Shown here: positions 40,464 to 62,643 of the stretch, one piece after another
Layout of the letters: each line of letters begins with the position of its first letter
Numbering within the stretch: position 1 is the stretch's first letter
Source of the DNA: Cladochytrium replicatum
Taxonomy: Eukaryota; Chytridiomycota; Chytridiomycetes; Cladochytriales; Cladochytriaceae
Reading direction: 5' to 3'
Assembly (NCBI GenBank): GCA_025526935.1
Contig: JAHLKD010000022.1
Span: 479,560 to 543,559, forward strand
Length of the DNA: 64,000 bases
Made by a program: the position numbers and the translations under genes
Notes under the pieces: model-generated
Told to the model about the DNA's origin: nothing
Databases searched by the model: none
What the model saw: only the letters and a program-made list of their open reading frames with translations

Positions 40464-40545
40464 CGTCACCTGCAGGATTCGAACCTGCGCGGGCAGAACC
40501 CAACGCCTTAGCAGGGCGCCGCCTTAACCACTCGGCCAAAGTGAC
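40464..40545 (-). tRNA. tRNA-Ser(GCT)
   Basis: An 82-nt cloverleaf with a long variable arm. Acceptor GTCACTT pairs with AGGTGAC (one G-T), the D-arm box A is TGGCCGAGTGG, the anticodon stem GCGCC/GGCGT closes loop CTGCTAA (anticodon GCT), and T-arm GCAGG-TTCGAAT-CCTGC is perfect. Discriminator G, no intron. No run of four Ts occurs in the ~60 bp downstream, which is unusual for a Pol III gene. A truncated LINE begins within about 10 bp of its 5' end. Confidence 0.93.
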
Positions 40546-40551
40546 TTGTAA

Positions 40552-40965
40552 ATTTAACACCTTCCGCTTGATGTTAAAATTAATAGCCTTCGTCCACTTC
40601 GCATTGTCAACCCAGCGAATCTTGCACCGTGGTATCTAGTTTTTCGTTGTCTCCATAAGATTTGGCTTCACTGTATGGGTCTGCCATTAGAAGTTTCTCC
40701 TCCAGACTCCCTCTTTGGCCCTGCATTTGTGGATCTTTAACTGGTTCTATTTTCATTATTTATTACTCACCTGTTTTTTTGGCACCTTAGCAGTATCTGA
40801 TGGGTAGCCACAGGTTTGAGTTTACATTCTCTGTTTTGCTTTGTTGCTTTTCCTTATGCTGCGCGCGCATCCCTATGTGGTGGTCCATGACCATCTTGTA
40901 AGGCACTTTGGGTGTTGTTTTTGTTATGCATTGTATGTGCAAAATAAATAATAATATTGTTAAAA
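40552..40965 (+). mobile_element. LINE-A 3' fragment, 5'-truncated, abutting tRNA-Ser
   Basis: This matches the last ~60 codons and 3' UTR of the LINE-A at 52.7-57.6 kb in reverse orientation. Recognisable are LIAFVHFALSTQRILH, the terminal SLFGPAFVDL-like text (FGPAFVDL) and the UTR landmark ccttgtaaggcactttgggtg, ending in caaaataaataataatatt. Homology starts within about 10 bp of the tRNA 5' end. Confidence 0.85.
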
Positions 40966-40994
40966 TAACATCTGATTTGACCTTTTAGTTATAA

Positions 40995-41270
40995 TCTTCA
41001 ATTGCTCGAGCTTTTTGTTATCATGCACTATCTCGTCTTTTTTAGCTAGCCCATACCACTTCACGTGTTGGCTTGTTGCTGTTTCTAACTAACCCTTCCC
41101 ACATTTGAGTTCAGGCTGAAGTACCTTCAGGCACGTATGTTTGCTCGCTGGTCTGGTGATTCCAACCCTCTGTTGCCAGCTGCTGTGTTGCATCAATCAT
41201 ATCCAATTGGTTATGGTTCATCTCCTCCAACCCCTTTCAACGCTTATCTGATGGCATCTAGCGTAGCAAA
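40995..41270 (+). mobile_element. LINE-B internal fragment
   Basis: Translated text FRLKYLQARMFARWSGDS with LLPAAVL and YPIGYGSSP matches the LINE-B ORF2 C-terminal region found at 51.3-52.1 kb on the other strand. Both ends are truncated and the frame is broken upstream. Confidence 0.8.
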
Positions 41271-47951: not shown

Positions 47952-48580
47952 TAGTTGAGAAAGTGTCTGCCTGGACAGAATCCTAATTTGTAGAGAGGGT
48001 AGTTGTATTTGGTAGGAGATCAGTGAAGTACCGTCAATGAGTTGAGAAAGTGTCCGGGTGGACAGAATCTTATTGCTACATTGATAGAGAGGTTAGTTGT
48101 ACTTGATAGAGACAACTGAGTACCATCAATGAGTTGGGAAAGTGTCCAGGTGGACAGAATCCTATTGTGAGTAGCATTTGTGGAGAGGTTGGTTGTACTT
48201 GATAGAGATCACTGAAGTACAATCAATGAGTTGAGAAAGTGTCTGGGTGGACAGAATCCTATTGCTAGTAACATTGATAGAGAGGTTAGTTGTACTTGAT
48301 AGAGATCACTGAAGTACCGTCAATGAGTTGAGAAAGTGTCCAGGTGGACAGAATCTTATTGCTAGTAGCAATATTAGAGAGGTTGAGTGTACTTGATAGA
48401 GATCACTGAAGTATCGTCAACGAGTTGAGAAAGTGTCCGGTGGACAGAATCCTATTGCTAGTAGTATTTGTAGAGAGGTTAGCTGTACCTGATAGAGATT
48501 ACTGAAGTACCATTAATGACTTGAGAAAGTGTCCTGGTGGACAGAATCTGGGAGACTGAGTGTCACTGTGTCTGGGTAGA
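47952..48580. repeat. 92-97-bp minisatellite, about seven copies
   Basis: Head-to-tail units begin GAGTTGAGAAAGTGTCCGGG or close variants and contain TGGACAGAATCCTATTGCTA and TTAGTTGTACTTGATAGAGA. Full units measure about 92-97 bp, the first unit is diverged and the last is partial. Each unit carries the dyad TGTCC-N4-GGACA. Confidence 0.93.
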
Positions 48581-51125: not shown

Positions 51126-51178
51126 AGGTGAATCCAAGCGGAAATTAGTTAATTATATAATATATAACAATACGAAGA

Positions 51179-52682
51179 TTTTTTTTGAACTTCATAATAT
51201 GTATTTATTGTCCAACCAATACATATCACGCGCCGGCGCAAAATCCAAATGCAAGTGTAAAAATACACATAAATTGGCAGCACATGGGGAGCCGTGCGAG
51301 CCGTAGGAAAAGTAAAATGTTTCAAAACACTAAGGCATATCCAAATCAACAAAAGCAGACAATATAGAATCAGGAGCTGGAGACAAAACTAGGTCATACC
51401 CAAGACAGTTTGACCAAATGCGGTTAAGTGCACGAAGAACAAGAACCCACTGGGGAAAAGCAGGGGAAGGATAAAAAGGCCGTGGTGAAAGCATATCAAT
51501 TGCAATGTCAAGAGATAGGCAGGGATCGTCAGGCAGGCCCAAATCAAAACTAGCAGACAAACTAACACGCAAATGTAGACACACAGAGACATGGGCACGT
51601 GACACTTCAGGGGCATCATGACAGTTCCTACAATAAGGTCGGGGGTTTGGAAACAGGCGGCCAAGCCGATATAGCAGGAACAAACGAAGACATACTGTTG
51701 GGAGATGTTGGTGTGGGGGTAGCAACAAAGGGTGGCGAAGTTTCAAATTGCGGACAGGGGCAAACGAAACTGCAATTGGTCCATTATGCGCAACAGCTAA
51801 AGACTGAAAATGCAACATCAACGGATGAAGTGGGGGCACAACAGGCATAGGAACAATGAGATCATTGTGACAAGCAGAAAAATAAGGAGATGAACCATAA
51901 CCGACTGGAGATGACCGATAGAATTGCAACACAGCAGCTGGTAACAGAGGGCTGGAATCACTAGACCAGCGAGCAAACATACGTGCCTGAAGGTATTTCA
52001 GCCTGAACTCAAAAGTAGGAATTTGCGCTAACAGCAACAAACCAACACGCGAAGTGGTATGGGCTAGCGAAAACAGACGACACAGTGCATGTTAACAAAA
52101 ACGCTCGAGTACCTGAAGCTGAGCAGTGGAAGGCCGAATAAGTGCTAAACCAAACTCAAGTGAAGGTCTAATAAAAGACAAAAACAACAACCTGGCAACA
52201 CGAGGAGTAGACCCACCAAAGTACGAGACATAAGGTGCAAAAAGATACAATGAGGCACGAGCTTTCTCTAAGCGATGATCAATAGTTGCAGCAAGATCAA
52301 ACCCTTCAATAGTAAAATAGTGACCAAGGTATCTAAATGAGACCTCTACAGGGAGGGCAGAGCCATGAAGCTTCAAGGGGGTGGGTAACCGTTGAGAAGA
52401 TAACACAGCACACTTTGAAGGTGAAAACACAAAATGAGAAGCTAAAGCAAAATCTTCACAAATTTTCAATGCACGTTGGCTTGCTCAGGGTGGCAGAAAA
52501 CAAAGCTATGTCATCAGCAAAAAACAACGAATTGAAAACAGGAGTGTTATAAGAAAACCTAGCAAGATGAGAGGCTTCACGACGAAGGAGCTGTGCTAAA
52601 GGATTGATGAAAACTGAGTACAAAAACGGAGACAAAACAGAACCTTGAAAAAGACCTTGTGGAAGCGAAAACAAATCAGAAG
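51179..52682 (-). mobile_element. LINE-B, 3' half (RT palm onward), 5'-truncated
   Basis: Read on this strand, the copy starts in SDLFSLPQGLFQGSVLSPFL, followed by the RT catalytic FFADDIALFS. It continues through thumb and C-terminal parts (SFRYLGHYF, FIRPSLEFGLAL), frameshifts between 52,030 and 52,100, a CxxC-H-C knuckle (YCRNCHDAPEVSRAHVSVC) and the 3' tail with the GAGCCGTGCGAGCCGTAGG complement, ending in poly-A. It is disabled by truncation and frameshifts. Confidence 0.88.
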
Positions 52683-52950
52683 ATAGGTTTTTTTATAGGT
52701 TTTTTTATAGGTTTTTTTTTATTTTTTTTAACCATATTATTATTTATTTTGCACATACAATGCATAACAAAAAACAACACCCAAAGTGCCTTACAAGATG
52801 GTCATGGACCAGCACATAGGGAAGCGCGCGCAGCTAAGGAAAAGCAACAAAGCAAAACAGAGAATGTAAACTCAAACCTGTGGCTACCCGTCAGATACTG
52901 CTAAGGTGCCAAAAAAACAGGTGAGCAATAAATAATGAAAAAAGAAACCG

Positions 52951-55900
52951 TTAAAGATCCACAAATGCAGGGCCAAAGAGGGAGTCTGGAGGAGAAACTT
53001 CTAATGGCAGACCCATACAGTGAAGCCAAATCTTATGGAGACAACGAAAAACTAGATACCACGGTGCAAGATTCGCTGGGTTGACAATGCGAAGTGGACG
53101 AAGGCTATCAATTGCAACGTCAAGCGGAAGTTGTAAAACAGGAACAGGAACAGGAGGCAACAATAGGTCAAGACGCAAACATTCTGAAACATGAGATCTG
53201 GAGAGAGTTGCAGTGCGGCAGCGACAACACTGCTTGCGGGGGTGATAAAACAAACGTCCAAGGCGATACTGCAGAAGCCTCAAGATTGACGAAATAGGGA
53301 AGCATGGAGGAGCAATTGCTAGCGCATGAGGGTGTGCAGATGCGAGGGGAGCAAAGCTAGCAGCTATAGAACCATAGGCAGATGAGGCTACTTGGTGAAA
53401 GTGATTTGCGATAACATCAGAAGGTTTGTGAACTACAACATTTGCAGCCGGGAAGAGGAAGTGATTGTTGAAAGGGACAGGAGAACAACGAAAGTGCTTT
53501 CCCTGGTGAAGAAAGAATGACAACATAGAGTGAACCATATCAGGGGCATCATCATCCAGCCAACGTTGAAACATCTGAAACTGCAGATATTGAAGCCGAA
53601 ACTGAAGGTCAGGAAACTTAAAAAACAGTAAAACCCCAGCAATTGAAGTGGAAAATGAAAGGTGAAGAAATCGACACAAACATTGGTGAATAAAAGTCTG
53701 AACTGGTTTGCAAACAGCAACAGAGGGAAGAATAAAATATAAACCAAATTCAAGCGTAGGTCGAATAATAGACAAAAACAAATGACGAACCACAACCAGA
53801 GAATGAGAACCAAACATCCTTGAAGAAGAAAGCAAAGCAAAAGAAGCTGCGCGCGCTTTGGCAAGTCGATGGGAAATAGTCAGTGAAACATCAAATCCAG
53901 TATCTCCAAAAAAGCAACCCAGATAACGAAATGAAGGCTTGACAGGCAGAGTTTGACCATGAAGAAGCAAAGGCAAATTAGCAGGAATAGGAATTTTTGT
54001 GAGAATCACAGACTTCAAAGGAGCAAAAGAAAAACCACGAGCTTGGGCAAACTGGTCACAAACAGAGAGAAGAACCTGCATAGCATCCAAAGTAAGTGCA
54101 AACAACCCCAAATCATCTGCAAATAAAAAAGAATTATATCGTGGTTTGGCAGGATGAAAGAGTGTTATAGGTGGGGCAAATGGTCGGAGGAGCCCAGGTA
54201 GAGGATCAAGAAAAGTGATATAGAGAAGTGGACTGAGAACAGAACCTTGAAACAAACCTCTAAACAAATCAAAAGCATCTGAAAAACAATTTGCAACAAC
54301 CACTCTGGAAGAACAAAAATCAAACAGAGACTTCAAAACAAAAACAAATGGCAACGGTACTCCCCTAGAAAGAAGCTCAGCCCAAAGAATTGCACAATTT
54401 GTGGTGTCATAAGCTGCTTGAATATCTAAAAAACCAGCAACCCAAGGAACCTTGGCATTAGACGCACGGGAGATACATGCCTGAAGACCAAAAACACATT
54501 CCATTCCCGAGCGGTGTGACTGAAATCCCGCTTGGGCAGCATCAAGTGGGCGTTGAGACGTGATAGCAGAATAAAGATGTGGCAACAAAGCTCGCTCAAA
54601 AATTTTTCGGGCAACACACGAAAGAGTAATGGGGCGACAATTAGTAATGTCACCAAGCGTACCACGTTGCTTCCAAACTGGGTGCAAAAGCCCAAGATTC
54701 CATGAAGTGGGTGTAAGACTACTGTGAAAAATGGACTGAGAAAGTTGCAAGAACAATGGAGCAAGAATAGCTGAAATTGGGCGATAAAGTTCTGCAGGCA
54801 GACGATCATGACCCGGGGCAGACTCCAAAGGGCAGTCCCTAATAGCTAGAACAAAAGCTTCAACATCCAATGGCAGCTGAAAATCACACAGGACAATTGA
54901 AGGTGAAACTGGGTCAGCAGCCTGAGCATTGTAGACCCTAGCAAAATGATCAGCATATTTGGCTAAAGACTGAGGATCAAAATCTAAACCATTAGCTGAA
55001 GTACGAAAGTTAGCACAGCGCCGAGCATAAGACACATGTTTCAGAAGAGAAGGCACTGATGAAGAACTAGGGTCATCAAAAAAATTTGCTTTTGTCTTAC
55101 GCCTGTGTGATCTCAGAGCTGATTTGAATGCTTTGTGACTATCACGTTGGCGAGTTCTTAGAAAAGGAAGAAGAGGGTCAGAAGAATTGTGGTGCAAGAG
55201 GGAATAATAGTCACGGAATGCTGAACAAGCCTTACTACGCAACAAAGCAATCTCAGGGGGCAAAGGAGTGGTCGCTGGTGCTCTACGACGAGTGTTTGGG
55301 GTCCCAATGTCAGAACTGCTGCTGCCTCAACAAAATCAACTATAATTTGAAATGCGGAATCAATTGCTCCCTGGGCCACTGCACGAGAAAGAGAAGTCCC
55401 CACAGGGACCTGAAGTGGTTCCAATGCTGCTGTTAGCGCCTCTGATGTTGGAGGAAGCAGAATCTTAGCAGTTTCTCTGTGCGACTTACGAATAACTTCA
55501 TCCTTTAACAATCGGAGATTCCAAGAAGGTAGAGGAGGAGGCACAGTGGCCTGAGGATCTGGGCCAGCTAAAGAAAATGAACAGGTCACTGCAAAATGGT
55601 CTGAAGGATGGGGAGCCATAGACTGGGGTTGATCATGCACTAAATAAGAGGAAGCTGTCACATAAGTAGAAGCAAAAAACAAATCAATAATTGAACTCCC
55701 TAAGTGGGAACGAAAAGTTGGGCGACGAGCTGAAGAAGAAGCTGGGACAACCAATGAAAGTGAGTGGGCTGTAAAAAAAGGAAGAAGTGCTCTGGCACGG
55801 GCATTAGTAACATGATCACCAGTGCTCTGAGTTCTAAAATTGAAGTCACCCATCAAAACTACTGGTGTATCCGAATTCGAAACAAATTGAGGAAAATCAG

Positions 55901-56261
55901 ATAATGCACCCAAACAGTCTTCCGCAGTCCAACGTGGGGGAAAATAAAATCCACCAATCACGACCTGACGAAACCTAAACCACAAACCAAACCCAGAAGG
56001 AACTGATGCAATCAACCTAAATTGATAAGTACTGCAACGATGTGGGTTAATAAGAAGAGCAACACCAGATGCCAAAGGAGCGTCTGGTGGAGGACGAGAA
56101 TCAAACAACAAATACTCAGAAGAAACACTGTCTAAAGTTAACTGATGAGTTTCTGTTAAAACTAAAAAATCAAGCTGATGAGTAACAAGCCAAGCAAGTA
56201 AATCTGAAAAATCCAGAGGCAAACCTCTACAGTTGAAGGTTCCAGAACGAAAGGTCCACAT
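52951..56261 (-). pseudogene. LINE-A ORF2 (endonuclease-reverse transcriptase) with one frameshift
   Basis: The first reading frame (56261..55158) encodes the APE endonuclease: GTFNCRGLPLDFSDLL, LTETHQLTL, LMGDFNFRTQST and APHPSDHFAVTCS (catalytic Glu, Asp, Asp-His). The text passes into the second frame near 55,290. The RT frame then runs to 52951: SAPGHDRLPAELYRP, CRPITLSCVARKIFERAL, VAGFLDIQAAYDTTNCA, GLFQGSVLSPLLY, FLFADDLGLFAL (FADD), SFRYLGCFF, then CCRCRTATLSRSHVSECL. Compared with LINE-B, a single 1-nt indel explains the shift. No slippery heptamer in the right phase is present, so programmed frameshifting is unlikely. Confidence 0.88.
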
Positions 56262-56263
56262 TA
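56259..56263 (-). promoter_or_regulatory. TAATG stop-start overlap joining LINE-A ORF1 and ORF2
   Basis: On the minus strand the text reads CGCAATTAATGTGGACC: TAA ends ORF1 and the ATG sharing its last A opens ORF2 (MWTFR). This UAAUG arrangement is known to support termination-reinitiation in the silkworm LINE SART1. Confidence 0.9.
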
Positions 56264-57550
56264 ATTGCGAGATGTAGGTTCAGAACGCGAAGAACGGGCT
56301 AAAGAAACAGTAGCTTCAAAGTCTGCAGCAGGAAGATTAGAACGAAGATAATGAAAAACTGCAGGATCATGAGTAATTCGCAAGAGGTGAGCAAATCTTT
56401 TGTGAACAGCCTTTGCTACAGCAACTTGACGTTGCTCAAGTGATTGAACAGACCCAGAACGAAGCTGCCCAGGGTCAAAAAGATCAACGGGGACCTCATC
56501 ACCTGGAAAAATGTCCTTGCGGAGCTTGTCAGCACAGTCAGAAGTACAAATAAACTCAGCAGTGTTACGCCCAATAAAACTAATATGGCGAATGTCACGC
56601 GAAAATTGAGGGTTTCCAGAAATTCGATTAATCAGAGTGCGGAGTTGATTAAGTGGCTGACGACTAATTTCCTTAAACCTCACAGTAGCAAAACCAGCAG
56701 CACAATCACGAACAGGCTGAGGAGGATTGATCAAAATTGGTGACTCAGCCGGGTAATCAATCACCAATCTGGGTGGCCGTAGTGATATGCGAGATAGGGG
56801 TTCCACTCCAGCAACCACTGAGCGATAAAGGGTGGGTTGAGCATCAGCTTCGGCAGCTTCAATACGAACAATAGCATTTGATGCACGAGAGGCAAATTTT
56901 GCAGTGCTGAAAGGCCCAGGATTGCGAGTAGCAGGGGCAGGTGGCGGTCGGCTAGCACTCGCAACTTGAGCATAGGAAGGCACGGCAGAGACAGCAGCAG
57001 GAGGGCAGCTGATAGTTTCAACCAACGGAACTACAGCAATAGTCAATGCAGCAAAGAAGGCAGCCTCAGTTTCTGGTTCCAATACTGGGAGAAATTGCAT
57101 TGCACGAGTGAAAGCAGACATCACTAATGGATGAGATCCAGAAGTTTGAGCAGGGGCCAGCATATGCAGAGCATCCAAGAATCGGTCACGAGGAGTGGGC
57201 AAGGGAGAGGTAGCATGATCAGCTGCAGAGGCATTCTTCTCGACCCTGGCACGAGAGGCAGGTCGGCCAGTCGGGGGTGATTTTGAGGTTCGACGTTTCC
57301 CTTTGGGATCAGCATCAGCAATGGTAAGTGACATTTCGACTGTATCATTCATGTGAACATCAACGATACTTGCGGGGGATCTTCCTCTAATTCCAGGCGG
57401 TTCTGAAGTGGATGATGGTTGGTCACGTGATTGGTGGTCACGTGATTTGCGAGGAGAATTCACTTCATCTGCCCACAGAAAATTTTCTCCATCAAAGTTG
57501 CTGGGCTGAGAGTCAGGAATAATTTCCTGAGGGGCGCGAGGGTGGGACAC
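56261..57550 (-). CDS. LINE-A ORF1 (gag-like RNA-binding protein)
   Basis: An uninterrupted 429-aa frame starting MSHPRAPQEIIPDSQPSNFD. The N-terminal half is hydrophilic with basic patches (KGKRRTSKSPPTGR). The C-terminal half holds a conserved region shared with LINE-C ORF1: CAAGFATVRFKEISRQPLNQ, IRHISFIGRNTAEFICTS, DKLRKDIFPGDEVPVDLFD and VAKAVHKRFAHLLR. In other LINEs ORF1 packages element RNA; that role is inferred. No zinc knuckle is seen. Its stop overlaps the ORF2 start. Confidence 0.88.
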   Translation of the reverse strand: MSHPRAPQEIIPDSQPSNFDGENFLWADEVNSPRKSRDHQSRDQPSSTSEPPGIRGRSPASIVDVHMNDTVEMSLTIADADPKGKRRTSKSPPTGRPASRARVEKNASAADHATSPLPTPRDRFLDALHMLAPAQTSGSHPLVMSAFTRAMQFLPVLEPETEAAFFAALTIAVVPLVETISCPPAAVSAVPSYAQVASASRPPPAPATRNPGPFSTAKFASRASNAIVRIEAAEADAQPTLYRSVVAGVEPLSRISLRPPRLVIDYPAESPILINPPQPVRDCAAGFATVRFKEISRQPLNQLRTLINRISGNPQFSRDIRHISFIGRNTAEFICTSDCADKLRKDIFPGDEVPVDLFDPGQLRSGSVQSLEQRQVAVAKAVHKRFAHLLRITHDPAVFHYLRSNLPAADFEATVSLARSSRSEPTSRN

Positions 57551-57643
57551 AGAGGGAGCACGGGAGCGAGCACGGCCAGAAGCGATGAAATTTTGGAGGG
57601 GGGTACGGCGGGCGGCGCGGCATGCGGCGCGTCAGGCGGCATT

Positions 57644-57712
57644 GAGTGTGAGAGAGTGTGAGAGAGAGAGAGTGAGAGAGAGAGAGAGAGTGAGAGAGAG
57701 AGTGTGTGTGTG
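57644..57712. repeat. (GA)n/(GT)n microsatellite between LINE-A and LINE-B
   Basis: About 70 bp of gagaga runs interspersed with gtgtg, directly between the LINE-A 5' end and the poly-T of the neighbouring LINE-B. Confidence 0.92.
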
Positions 57713-60060
57713 TTTTTTTTTTTTGAACTTCATAATATGTATTTATTGTCCAACCAATACATATCACCCGCTGGTGCAAAATCCAAATACAAGTGTAAAA
57801 ATACACGTAAATTGGCAGCACATGGGGAGCCGTGCGAGCCGTAGGAAAAGTAAAACAAAAAGACCTCGTGGAAGCAAAAAAAAATCAGAAGCACGATTCT
57901 CTATAACAACCTGAGAAGAACAACGATCAAACATACTCATCAAAACAGAGATCAAACGGTTTGGAATTCTGGGAAATTGACGAAGACGTTCCCACAAAAG
58001 AGGCCTATGCACAGTATCATACGCTGCTTTAATATCTAAGAAAGTAACACAATAAGGAAGAGCAGTGCGGGAAGCTCGTCGAAGGGTAGCATCTAATGCA
58101 AAAACACACTCAACACCTGAACGATTGGCCTGGAAACCAGCTTGGGTGGGATCAAGTTTACCAACATGAGCTACAAGCATAGGAAGCAGGGTACGCTCAA
58201 AGATTTTTCTATCAACATTGGTTAAAGTAATGGGGCGGTACTGACTAATATCACCAATGGAGCCCTTATTCTTCCAAACAGGTAACAACAAGCCAGCATT
58301 CCAGGCAGAGGGCGACAAACCTGAACAGAAAATAGCGTTTGAAAGTTGAACAAAAAGGATAGCAACATCAGAAGCTAACGGCTTAAATAACTTAGCTGGA
58401 ATATGGTTTGGGCCAGGAGCAGAGTTGTTTGGGGAAGAACGAATAGCACAAACAAAGTCACTAACACTAACTGACACAGAATCATTCAGCGCATGTAGAC
58501 GAACGTGTTCTGCACTGGCAGAGGATTGTGCAAACTGAGTCTGATAAACGGAGGCAAAGTGATTGCGATAATGAGATAAAGAGGCAGGATCAGACAATAA
58601 ACCACTTGCAGCTGAGCGCCGTTGATGACACCTACGCGCTGTGGAAAGAACTTTGCTAACCTCAGTTAAAGAACTAGGAGAAGAATTATACATTTTGTTG
58701 CCAGAAGCCTCTCGAGCTCGCTGAGAAAGAGACCAAGTACGAAAAGCTTTGACACGCTCACGCGATAGCCGGTCATGCTCCAAGCGGCAATACTCAACTA
58801 AACCAGGATCAGGATCATCACAGGAAGAAACAGCTAAATAGTGCTTATGAGCAAGTAAGTAGCTCCGTCGCAAGGCCACTAAATGCGGCGGCAACAATGG
58901 CAGGGCAGGGCGACGGCGAACTAAACTGGGGGGTCCAATGACACAAGCAGCACACGAAGTAACAAAGGACAAAATAATATCCAATGCAGAGTCAATAAAT
59001 CCCTGTGCAACATCCACAGACATTTGGGCAAAGGCGGGAGCTTCTAAATTGGACTGAGCGCAGCATTGACATCAGCAAGGGTGGGATCAAAAAACAAAAT
59101 GTCCCACATCCTCCATTGCTTGAAAGACAGCAGGTTCACGCAACAGATGAGCAGCCCAGCGCTTGTGGGGGGGTGCAGCAGAGGGAGCGCTGGCATTGGG
59201 AGGAGCAAAAGAAAAAACAGCTGTAACCGGAAAATGGTCAGAAGCCCAAGGCATAAACTCGCTGTCGGCTAGACGACTATGAACTATGTAAGAAATAGGA
59301 TCACATTGAAGCAGAGGATTGACAAACAACAAATCGATAATGGAGTCACCATTGCGAGAAGAAAATGTGGGGTTATGACAGGAAGGGTGCTTAACTAGAG
59401 AGAAACTAGCGGCAGAAATAATTGCTCAAACAACCTACCCCTATGATTTGAAGAATGATCACCAGTAGCTAAAAAACGGGCATTGAAATCGCCCAACAAA
59501 AGAACAGGGCACGGAGACGACGGGACATGTTGAGGAAGTGAAGCAATAAACTCTTCAAGGAAGGGGTCCTGAGCAATACCACACGGAGGCAAATAATACC
59601 CTCCAACCAAAAGCCCACGAAATGTAAACCATAGAGAGGTGCCACCATAACTAGAAACGAGACGGAAATCAGAAGCTCTACAAAGACTGCGATTGATCAA
59701 GACTCCCACACCAGCCCGTCGTGTACCCGATGACCCAGGAGAAAAACGAGTGTCAAAAATCAAATCTGGAGAAGGCAGCGGGTCTAAAGGAAAAAGGTGT
59801 GTTTCAGTCAGGAGCAGAAAACAATGTGATTTGCGCGCATAAACGAAACAGTGAATCAAGAAACTCCAAAGCTCAAATTGCGACAATTGAAGGTACCAAC
59901 TCGAACACTAATCATTGACGAAGATGGGTTGAGCGAGGCTGACGCGCAATCCAGCGGGCACTGTCCAGCACAGTTTTCCTGAGCATCCCATGGGGAGCTG
60001 ACCCAAGGGACATACCGGAAAATAGCTAGGATCAGTAACTGAACCTGAGGATATGTGCAT
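57713..60060 (-). mobile_element. LINE-B, internally deleted copy (3' tail joined to mid-RT)
   Basis: From the right: a degraded ORF1 end (SVHKRYAHILRF) and an endonuclease split by frameshifts (GTFNCRNLSFG, LLLTETHLFPL, LLLGDFNARFLATGDHSSN, FMPWASDHFPVTA). Then an open 5' RT portion (59023 to about 57,860) runs through KIFERTLLPML, FLDIKAAYDTVHR and FFLLPRGLF. There the coding text stops and joins directly to the 3' UTR with the GAGCCGTGCGAGCCGTAGG core and poly-A. The RT catalytic FADD half is missing, so the copy is dead. Confidence 0.85.
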
Positions 60061-60545
60061 ATCTCTTGTGGACACTTCCCTGACCGCAGCCTCCCGGCTG
60101 CTTCAAAGGCAGCAGAGTAGAGGCTCCGGCGACAGGGACGTCAGGGGTTTGATTCGTCACGTGGAAGCTTCCTGGGGGGAGAAGGTGCTCACGTGAGAGC
60201 AATTGCGCGTTGAGCGAATACAGATAAAGGAAGCAATGTTGCGACCAAAAAAACCTGATGTGGCCGGATACCACGCACCACCTCCTCATCGCCCAAGAGA
60301 GCCCTCAGCATGGTCCGCACAAAGCCGAGCCGCTGTCTCATGATGTCCTTGATGTACACACGTGGTCAGATCATCCACAACGGGCCCTGAAGATCAGCAG
60401 GTGGGGAGACCAGCAGCGGAGAGGTCAGTGGATAGAATACAACAGGCTGAGGCCACGTTAGGAGAATACAACAGGCTGAGGGCCACGTTAGGAGAAGAAC
60501 TAACATATTGTCGCCAGAAGCCTCTCGATGTGCTTGAGAGAGGTG
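60061..60545 (-). mobile_element. Jumbled LINE-B fragments
   Basis: ORF1-like text precedes SVHKRYAH. A short piece near 60,500-60,540 (LSQAHREASGDNM) matches the LINE-B RT N-terminus (LSQRAREASGNKM). Inside is an imperfect tandem duplication of about 29 bp (aatacaacaggctgaggcca...) at about 60,436-60,495. Element limits cannot be defined. Confidence 0.5.
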
Positions 60546-60553
60546 ACAAGCCC

Positions 60554-60855
60554 TTTTTTTTTTTTTGAATGTTATCAACATGTATTGGACAATGCTTAAT
60601 CAGTACATGTCACCCCACGTGTACTTTCAACCAAGATTTGGAATCTTCAGTACTTGGGGAGCCGTGCGAGCCGTAGGAAAGAGGAGCGAAGGCAATGGCG
60701 ATCGAAGGAGGTGTGGCGCTGGTACTTGCACGTGCCACGATATTGCGAGAGATATAATTTCGTAGGAAATTCGAATCCAGTCCCCTATAGGATTCGAACC
60801 GCGGAGTTTAGCTTCGAAAAGTCGCATTTCGTACCGACTGAGCCACATGAGGCCC
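60554..60855 (-). mobile_element. tRNA-derived SINE with a LINE-B-like 3' tail
   Basis: About 300 bp. Its 5' end reads GGGCCTCATGTGGCTCAGTC with Pol III box A TGGCTCAGTCGG and, about 40 bp later, a perfect box B GGTTCGAATCC. The anticodon arm and acceptor stem do not fold, so this is not a functional tRNA. A central body follows, then the 19-mer CCTACGGCTCGCACGGCTC found in LINE-B tails. The last segment (GGGGTGACATGTACTG ... CAATACATGTTGATAACATT) parallels the LINE-B end (GCGGGTGATATGTATTGG ... ACATATTATGAAGTTC) before poly-A. Confidence 0.8.
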
Positions 60856-60950
60856 TTTTTTTTCTTTTTTTTTTTTTTTGAACTTCATAATATGTATTTA
60901 TTGTCCACAACCATAGCATCCATCACCCGCTGGTTGCAAAATCCAAATAC
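60856..60950 (-). mobile_element. Very short 5'-truncated LINE-B tail
   Basis: Only the last ~70 bp of the LINE-B 3' UTR plus poly-A remain. Its poly-A end abuts the 5' end of the SINE (AAAAGGGCCTCATG). Confidence 0.85.
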
Positions 60951-60956
60951 AAGCCC

Positions 60957-62243
60957 TTTTTTTTTTTTTTTTTTGTTTTTGAACAATATTATTTATTTAT
61001 TGTGCACATACAATGCATAACAATAAACAACACCCAAAGTGCCTTACAAGATGGCGTGGACCAGGCACATAGGGAAGCGCGCAAGTCGGAGGGCAAAGCG
61101 AAATAGAAATCAAGATCTAAAAACTCCTTCCTTGTGACTACCCGTCAGGGGCTCTGCTCAGGTGTCAAATACAGGTGAGGGATAAAGAAAAGAAAGACAA
61201 CTCAACATTGTGAAGAATATAACAGCAAATCACTGGGTCAATACGAAGGTCAGAAGCTGAGGTCATCGACGGGGCATATCATACGATCGAGATGCAACAG
61301 CGTAGAAAGATGAGCAACGGATCAACAAGATTGCGGTAGAACAATGCAACAGCTGGCTCAGACGTAGTAGCAATCGCCTTGGCACTTCGATGGAGCAGAG
61401 AGTCATAGCGTTGCAGAGAGTCGGAACTGTCAGAATACGAAGGAGGGGACACATCCAAATCAGTGATTTCTCGACCAGGTATGTGTTTGCGGATCAGATC
61501 AGCAGCATAAGAACGACAAAGAAATTCAACAGAATCAGAGCCGAGAAATGAGATGTAGCGGATGCCATGGTAAGCGGTATACGGAAGATCTTTGCGAAGC
61601 AACACACGAAGGTCCCTGATTGGGCGACGAGTAAAACCAGAAAATCGGAGAGTAGTGAAGGATTCGGCACATTCTTTGACAAATTTGAAGCTTCTATGCG
61701 AGGTCGGCAGGTCGTCCAAGAGGAAGTGCGAACAAGTAAGCTCATTCATGGAATCATTGGTGGCAGGTGATGAGGCTGGAGATGGGGCTGAGCAGGTGGC
61801 TGAACTGTCAAGAGTGGTGGTGGCAGTGGGTGGGTGCATCAGGGGCAGTGTGCTGGTGGCAGTGTTGGTGGCACCAAGGGCACAGGTGGCAGCGACGTGT
61901 AAATGTGGAGGAGAAGCAGTGGAGAGTTGGAAGCAGATCAGGGTTGAGGGTAGCAGGGGAGAGAGCAGAAAGGGAGCGCAATAGAAGTGCATAGCACTTT
62001 AGAAGGTCAGGTGAACTTGCAAAGTCAGAGGCAGAGCAGAGGGCAAGTGAGAGAGATAGAGGATGATGCAGAGGAGTAGCCCCGGCTAGTCAGCAGACTG
62101 CTCAGAAGAGAATGCAGGTGAGAGGGTCAAGGGAGAGCTAAGGGAGAGAGGAGCAGAGGTGAAAAGAAGGGCAGCATGGGGTACAAGGCTCACAGTTGCG
62201 ATGGATAACAGGAGGTGAGGTGCAAATGATCATGGCAAGAGAA
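60957..62243 (-). mobile_element. LINE-C, half-LINE carrying ORF1 and 3' tail only
   Basis: A LINE-A-like 3' UTR (caatgcataacaataaacaa and caacacccaaagtgccttac on the + strand) with poly-A at 60,957 is followed within about 100 bp by an ORF1 end. No endonuclease or reverse transcriptase sequence lies between. The leader upstream of ORF1 extends to the poly-T of the next element at 62,244. Confidence 0.8.
61279..61992 (-). CDS. LINE-C ORF1
   Basis: Open frame of 237 aa. The N-terminal third is Thr/Ala/Pro-rich. The rest aligns with LINE-A ORF1: ECAESFTTLRFSGFTRRPIR, GIRYISFLGSDSVEFLCRS, DLIRKHIPGREITDLDVSP and LLHRSAKAIATTSEPAVALF. It has stayed open although the element lacks ORF2. The start codon is uncertain. 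Confidence 0.7.
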   Translation of the reverse strand: MHFYCAPFLLSPLLPSTLICFQLSTASPPHLHVAATCALGATNTATSTLPLMHPPTATTTLDSSATCSAPSPASSPATNDSMNELTCSHFLLDDLPTSHRSFKFVKECAESFTTLRFSGFTRRPIRDLRVLLRKDLPYTAYHGIRYISFLGSDSVEFLCRSYAADLIRKHIPGREITDLDVSPPSYSDSSDSLQRYDSLLHRSAKAIATTSEPAVALFYRNLVDPLLIFLRCCISIV

Positions 62244-62565
62244 GGGGCCCTTTTTTTTTTTTTTTTTGAACTCATAATAGGTATTTATTGTCCAACCAAT
62301 ACATATCACCCGCTGTGCAAAATCCAAATACAAGTGTAAAAATACACGTAAATTGGCAGCCATGGGGAGCCGTGCGAGCCGTAGGAAAAGTAAAATGTTT
62401 CAAAACACTAAGGCATATCCAAATCAACAAAAGCAGACAAGATACAATCAGGAGCTGGAGCTGGAGACAAAACTAACTCATAACCAAGACAGTTTGACCA
62501 AATGCGGTTAAGTGCACGAAGAACAAGAACCCACTGGGAAAAGGCAGGGGAAGGATAAAAGGCCG
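62244..62565 (-). mobile_element. LINE-B tail, 5'-truncated, abutting a tRNA-Arg-like sequence
   Basis: Same sequence as the start of the 51,179 copy (poly-T, caaccaatacatatcacccg, the GAGCCGTGCGAGCCGTAGG core, then the ORF2 end). Homology stops at ggataaaaggccg (62,565), six bases before the tRNA-like sequence. Confidence 0.88.
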
Positions 62566-62571
62566 AGTCAA

Positions 62572-62643
62572 GGGGCTGTAGCGCAGTGGATAGCGCGTTC
62601 GACTTCGGATCGAAAGGTCGAGAGTTCGACCCTTCCTGCCTCG
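62572..62643 (+). tRNA. tRNA-Arg(TCG)-like, imperfect
   Basis: D-arm GCGC/GCGC and anticodon stem TTCGA/TCGAA are perfect and the loop CTTCGGA gives anticodon TCG. Box A (TAGCGCAGTGG) and box B (AGTTCGACCCT) are present. The acceptor (GGGGCTG with CTGCCTC) has a T-T mismatch and the T-arm is off by one base; no T-run follows. It is either a decayed tRNA-Arg gene or a tRNA-derived repeat head. Confidence 0.6.

Follow-up and report, generated by a model that had tools for sequence, protein, structure and literature searches.

An array of non-LTR elements at a tRNA gene

The window, by which we mean the whole stretch of 64,000 nucleotides of the Cladochytrium replicatum genome that was analysed, contains two tRNA genes, one of which, tRNA-Arg(TCG), borders an array of retroelements near the end of contig C22, within its final few kilobases (Table 1). 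In order from tRNA-Arg, the array comprises a LINE-B piece, an ORF1-only element, a LINE-B remnant, a SINE, LINE-B, LINE-A, and a LINE piece; every one of them lies on the minus strand. At the junctions GGGC or GGCC recurs, as would be expected if successive newcomers had inserted at identical target bases next to the tRNA gene. Both tRNA genes of the window have an antiparallel LINE upstream. A sequence-only reading of this DNA had placed the SINE and a LINE partner in the same cluster; the LINE-B copy is indeed present, and the cluster is an array at a tRNA gene, a point absent from that reading. Outside the array, a repeat of about 97 bp occurs in five to six tandem copies (47953–48557, plus strand).

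Table 1. Coordinates of the elements, promoter motifs, and tRNA genes in the window
Feature	Position	Strand	Remarks
SINE copy	60554..60851	(-)	head at 60851, end of A-tail at 60554
box A TGGCTCAGTCGG	60834..60845	(-)	from the sequence
box B GGTTCGAATCC	60790..60800	(-)	from the sequence
SINE tail, homologous to LINE-B 3' end	60567..60680	(-)	26-nt identical core and 3'-terminal hairpin
A13 tail of SINE	60554-60566	(-)	from the sequence
Short direct repeat GCCC, 3' side of SINE	60550..60553		likely target-site duplication
Short direct repeat GCCC, 5' side of SINE	60852..60855		from the sequence
LINE-A copy	52713..57706	(-)	ORF1 56261-57631, endonuclease 55158-56279, RT 52951-55326, CT-rich 5' end
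LINE-B copy	57713..60549	(-)	endonuclease and RT reading frames broken
ORF1-only (non-autonomous) LINE derivative	60957..62246	(-)	LINE-A type tail
73-bp remnant of LINE-B type 3' end with its A-tail	60856..60952	(-)	abuts the SINE side; from the sequence
5'-truncated LINE, LINE-B type tail	62251..62560	(-)	11 bp upstream of tRNA-Arg, antiparallel; repeat families D4, D11, D13
tRNA-Arg(TCG)	62572..62643	(+)	borders the array; ARAGORN/Rfam
LINE 3' part, LINE-B type tail	51175..52091	(-)	far end of array
tRNA-Ser(GCT)	40464..40545	(-)	second tRNA gene of the window
5'-truncated LINE-A	40553..40968	(+)	7 bp upstream of tRNA-Ser, antiparallel
Older LINE-B type piece	40996-41226		follows the LINE-A at tRNA-Ser

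LINE-A encodes an endonuclease (Exo_endo_phos) and a reverse transcriptase (RT) in two overlapping frames; only RVT_1, and no RNase H domain, was found in the 791-residue RT frame. Where the reverse transcriptases of LINE-A and LINE-B align, 148 of 342 residues are common to both. The named relatives of the RT are proteins of Mucor, Rhizopus, and Chytriomyces (27–36%), and comparison with the PDB places R2 and L1 about equally close. The best named relatives of one host enzyme come mostly from chytrids and include kin of Mortierella, at about 65%, and mark the host as probably a chytrid. On its own strand, LINE-A opens with a CT tract (57634–57706); CT tracts beside tRNA genes may mark full-length LINEs. 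The ORF1-only element, about 1.26 kb long, has an ORF1-like frame only and a LINE-A type 3' end, and copies with a 5' end like its own occur at loci on C91, C76, C44, C125, and C77; at locus L044 it lies 33 bp upstream of a tRNA-Cys gene.

The array has a near-duplicate on contig C91 (window 56215–62372 versus C91:76827–82943), with 38 mismatches and 69 gap openings over 6.2 kb and with the same truncated LINE arrangement at tRNA-Arg (locus L117). So gap-rich a difference, lying at the end of a contig, seems to point to sequencing error left uncorrected, or else to a second haplotype, and sequencing error may account for part of the broken LINE frames in the window's array.

The SINE and its copies

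Read on the minus strand, the SINE is a repeat unit of about 300 bp in which a head with both promoter boxes is followed by a body, a LINE-like tail, and an A-tail, with GGGC flanking it on both sides. Box A matches the consensus TRGYNNANNNG and box B the consensus GGTTCGANTCC, and the two boxes together would supply the internal Pol III promoter of a SINE. The head had been interpreted as tRNA-derived. Neither ARAGORN nor Rfam calls a tRNA in it, although its best match among 58 tRNA genes, tRNA-Lys(UUU), scores 52, compared with a mean of 32 and a maximum of 49 for 200 shuffled heads scored in the same way (best of 58). The RNA fold of the head is not above that of shuffles (z = 0.75). A tRNA origin is thereby retained in qualified form, as a putative one based on the two boxes and a modest alignment.

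The 50.5-Mb genome contains 99 matches to the head (40 bases, at most two mismatches) and 118 exact matches to 23 bases of the tail, and the backwards-pattern control gave 0 in both searches; scoring 40 of 137 candidates gave at least 45 SINE matches genome-wide. These counts are far above chance and confirm a repeat with many dispersed copies. The reading of this minus-strand unit as a genuine multicopy SINE is borne out: it is not a single-copy sequence, and head and tail are not found apart everywhere else, as 49 full copies attest.

These 49 copies comprise the best-scoring ones and those in tRNA and LINE loci, and are not a random sample; over 279 nt, 33 of them are letter-identical, and pairwise identity has a median of 99.6% and never falls below 92.6%, figures that suggest recent activity. 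The SINE in the C91 duplicate equals the commonest copy without a difference, and the one in the window departs from it by one mismatch and nine indel bases. At least four pairs of loci among the 49 have common flanks (C22/C91, C18/C24, C48/C111, and C79/C105). Four of ten fetched copies that lack the head are clearly 5'-truncated with the tail kept. On C43 (330228–331427), the positions of head and tail patterns indicate a tandem row of four SINE copies with a spacing of about 305 bp.

Target-site duplications of the SINE are short or absent. The shared flanks of the 49 copies average 3.98 nt; mispaired controls average 3.06 nt, and none of 500 reaches the observed value. The observed mean is inflated because tandem SINEs use the head of the next copy as flank, as is the case for the two longest shared flanks (10 nt). 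In 20 of the 49 copies, the shared flank is 2 nt or less.

Position of the elements at tRNA genes

The 5' ends of 21 of the 49 full SINE copies lie 3–22 bp from a tRNA gene, all antiparallel to it, at genes for 13 amino acids. A further 21 copies stand directly behind the A-tail of another element (12 of LINE-A type, 5 LINE-B, and 4 SINE); for nine of these an antiparallel tRNA gene follows further up, at 60–2177 bp, and for 12 no tRNA gene was found in the approximately 1 kb examined. The seven copies in neither class have as neighbour a tRNA-Cys at 37 bp (one), a LINE-A-like tail (one), a tRNA-like sequence recognised by eye (two), or a LINE in head-to-head arrangement (three). The tRNA-like sequence facing two copies receives no call from ARAGORN or Rfam; for Rfam this holds at L027 and L035. 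By a rough estimate, chance would bring fewer than 0.1 of the 49 copies so close, even if all 2278 tRNA candidates are counted as genes.

The same relationship is seen from the side of the tRNA genes, in a sample chosen independently of the elements. It consists of the best-scoring Rfam tRNA matches, 62 after scoring 63 of the 2278 candidates. Counted were 30 of these together with flanks of 1.5 kb, and 20 more for which about 150 bp of upstream sequence was used; the other 12 were left out. With purine/pyrimidine runs masked and with a library taken from the window's own array, which other LINE families escape, 41 of the 50 genes have a LINE or SINE in antisense orientation no more than 150 bp upstream (26/30 and 15/20, the latter including L117, the C91 duplicate of the window's array). 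No gene of the 50 has a sense-orientation LINE or SINE in this interval, none of the 30 has any within 150 bp downstream, and none of 300 random 150-bp stretches from the first 40 kb of the window contains one. Within 1500 bp of the first 30 genes, elements are found upstream (antisense) at 29 and downstream (any orientation) at two. Nine of the 50 genes are without a masked-library match within 150 bp, although one of them, L068, has a match at 129 bp in a longer search; L045 and L121 have no upstream match even unmasked.

An origin of this association in (CT)n/(GA)n matches was considered and rejected, since the count, 48/50 unmasked (29/30 within 1500 bp and 19/20 within about 150 bp), still stands at the 41/50 given above once such runs are masked. 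The unmasked matches nearest the tRNA lean on GA runs at L042, L068, L109, L110, L113, and L120. The elements hold a fixed position upstream of tRNA genes, in the opposite orientation, and the SINE and the LINEs have this target in common at many loci.

Head-to-head SINE/LINE loci

At C127, C24, and C18 (loci L022, L037, and L038), where the first ~900 bases of each LINE were examined, a LINE-A on the opposite strand has its CT-tract 5' end about 5–10 bp from the SINE head, which is the arrangement normally found at tRNA genes. The flanks of C24 and C18 are equal, and the three loci are probably two events. At C127, a LINE-A 3' end is reached at the expected distance, and behind it comes the 5' end of a second LINE-A-like element, which points the same way and has the junction motif in common. 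The tRNA gene predicted behind the first LINE was not found in 351 bases there, where a longer LINE run would hide one.

The geometry suggests that the LINE machinery reads the SINE head as a Pol III promoter, so that the head itself may have served as a LINE landing site. We put forward tentatively the notion that the SINE head is doubly used, as promoter and as landing site for LINEs, in a relation of mutual support and not of plain parasitism on the LINE. If this is true, tRNA-targeted SINEs would multiply the safe targets of LINEs and seed two-directional arrays. It is quite conceivable, if short of an even chance, that the SINE head is no landing site and that the pairs arose when a SINE inserted beside a LINE 5' end, or by rearrangement: the loci are only three, two of them with the same flanks, and no tRNA gene is reached beyond the C127 LINE. 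Set against this origin are the distance and head-to-head geometry, which equal those at tRNA genes, and the second, like-directed LINE at C127 with its common junction motif.

Tail homology and the probable LINE partner

The SINE tail had been described as matching the LINE-B 3' end. The last ~125 bp of the SINE, aligned with that end, reach a local score of 74 (maximum of 29 in 300 single-base shuffles), and at the start of the tail 26 of 26 positions are identical; end to end, 82 of 126 alignment columns agree (65%). The tails are homologous without being identical, and the LINE-A tail is distantly related as well, more weakly than that of LINE-B (local score of 43, maximum of 29 in 300 shuffles). 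The claim of a shared tail survives as one of kinship.

A hairpin directly before the A-tail is possible in the SINE, LINE-B, and LINE-A (fold z = -1.55, -0.66, and -2.32, respectively); that of LINE-B appears in the centroid structure and is absent from the minimum-energy structure. The hairpin was further assessed in an alignment of 16 distinct tails (5 SINE and 11 LINE-B, with the family typed by hand from the loci). In this alignment 98.1% of cells are paired, a level reached by 2 of 500 shuffles; the covariation score and the number of cells changed on both sides are each reached by 1 of 500, in shuffles that disregard the division of the tails into two related groups. The number of pairs with a two-sided change (reached in 440 of 500 shuffles) and the number of pair types (497 of 500) are not exceptional, and a +2 slide yields a covariation score nearly equal to that of the hairpin (0.137 versus 0.154). 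The sole two-sided change is U-A in LINE-B versus C-G in the SINE. On this one covarying pair, the hairpin and the related tail would fit, thinly, a LINE/SINE pair of the stringent type.

A LINE carrying the exact tail of the SINE has been rejected as a candidate so far: the headless tail matches number about 25 by hand count among the first 100 of 118 listed, and the ten that were fetched are all SINEs. LINE-A, LINE-B, and a family outside the sample are all candidates for the true helper. That the SINE is mobilised not by LINE-B but by LINE-A or an unsampled LINE, with three tails of common ancestry, seems to us rather unlikely. LINE-A too is found at tRNA genes, including tRNA-Ser of the window, its tail can be aligned with that of the SINE, and 12 of the 21 array neighbours have LINE-A type tails, a class to which the ORF1-only element belongs; the SINE tail, however, is nearer to LINE-B in score and in its identical 26-nt core, and its hairpin stem differs from that of LINE-B by the one compensatory pair only. 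A SINE/LINE partnership is likely because a related tail and a shared target are found together.

Proposed mechanism

We consider it highly probable that the SINE, putatively tRNA-derived, is carried by the endonuclease and RT of a LINE resident in the genome whose 3' end resembles that of LINE-B, the SINE and this LINE being a putative pair that integrates at Pol III promoters. Boxes A and B of the head would recruit Pol III to produce SINE RNA, and the LINE protein would recognise the common 3' tail with its hairpin, as the tail homology, the compensatory pair, and the precedents of stringent type suggest. The protein would then be brought to Pol III promoters, where reverse transcription started at a nick that lies a few bases before the tRNA coding sequence would leave the element antiparallel with its 5' end toward the tRNA gene. 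The position and orientation are observed directly, with the 5' end facing the gene at 3–22 bp for the SINE, and TFIIIB sits near this distance. Later insertions would reuse the site between the tRNA gene and the older element; the head-to-tail anatomy of the resulting arrays is observed, and by the presumed order the youngest member would stand next to the tRNA gene.

Most simply, it would be the LINE protein, rather than the RNA, that finds the Pol III promoter, since the SINE and the LINEs have little in common beyond tail and target; if the pair is real, target choice would be set by the protein. Very improbable by comparison is random insertion with survival under selection only beside tRNA genes. 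Harmful elements may be purged in a gene-dense genome, but the single orientation, the narrow range of distances, the 0/30 downstream, and the reuse of the same spot speak against purging as the cause, as do the many identical SINE copies, which leave little time for it. It is scarcely credible that the unit is a retropseudogene, a chimera of a tRNA and the 3' end of a LINE, multiplied by segmental duplication alone: the four locus pairs with both flanks in common are set against the other copies, whose flanks and tRNA genes differ and whose A-tails and extent of 5' truncation vary.

Comparison with known systems

UnaL2 and UnaSINE1 form a stringent-type LINE/SINE pair, and we know of no pair of this type that targets tRNA genes; the system described here is unlike such pairs in that the SINE and LINE-B tails agree in 65% of columns only. 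The likeness, which extends to the zebrafish ZfL2 LINEs (PMC4176376), is that the LINE protein recognises a hairpin in its 3' tail and that this tail is common to SINEs.

Among fungi, SINEs with a defined LINE partner had been called scarce, a statement to be tempered by AfuSINE2-1a of Aspergillus fumigatus, already described with a tRNA-related head and a 3' end similar to that of the resident LINE I-1_AF; the term "tRNA genes" is absent from the available text of PMC5063351, which under that term describes no such placement. Ylli, a LINE of the fungus Yarrowia lipolytica, is of the APE type, has A-tails, is subject to 5' truncation, and shows no target-site duplications that can be recognised, whereas the available part of PMC5014426 reports no tRNA-gene placement and identifies no SINE of Ylli. 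Tj1, Ty3, Tyl3, Ylt1, and other yeast LTR elements integrate a short way upstream of tRNA genes, either at the start site or within a few bases of it, but by an LTR/integrase mechanism and with no SINE (PMC5911963). Among the matches listed in the open-licence literature, no title or abstract opening names a LINE or SINE of a fungus with tRNA genes as its target, which describes that material and does not imply absence from print.

The nearest counterparts are found in dictyostelid amoebae, to which all tRNA-targeted non-LTR elements tabulated in a 2018 review belong (TRE5, TRE3, NLTR-A, and NLTR-B; PMC5911963, as far as available). TRE5-A of Dictyostelium discoideum resembles the elements described here in its APE-type endonuclease and RT, its A-tail, its position upstream of tRNA genes in opposite orientation, and its non-autonomous, ORF1-keeping form TRE5-A.2, of which our ORF1-only element is reminiscent; it needs a functional box B, and its ORF1 protein binds TFIIIB subunits. 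It differs in its amoeba host, as opposed to a fungus, and in its distance of ~40–54 bp upstream, compared with 3–22 bp for 21 SINE copies here, and a TRE5-A SINE is not mentioned in the available portions of these sources (PMC5911963, PMC5391098). By this analogy, the fungal system would work like TRE5 and, by distance, would not be TRE5. NLTR-A of Dictyostelium purpureum inserts 2–6 bp upstream of the tRNA coding sequence, a distance near that of the elements here, but has an RNase H domain, versus none found in the LINE-A RT frame; the word SINE is absent from the accessible text of PMC5006619.

The SINE and the LINEs are ordinary in build, and what is new in the searchable literature is the tRNA-gene target common to both in a fungus, apparently independent of the dictyostelid case. 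Targeting of tRNA genes by non-LTR elements is otherwise described, in that literature, only for dictyostelid amoebae, and here the target is common to a SINE and its presumed helper. With recent activity, it would become possible to test, in a second kingdom, how Pol III promoters are located by a LINE protein, in a genome where many tRNA genes carry their own insertion history alongside.
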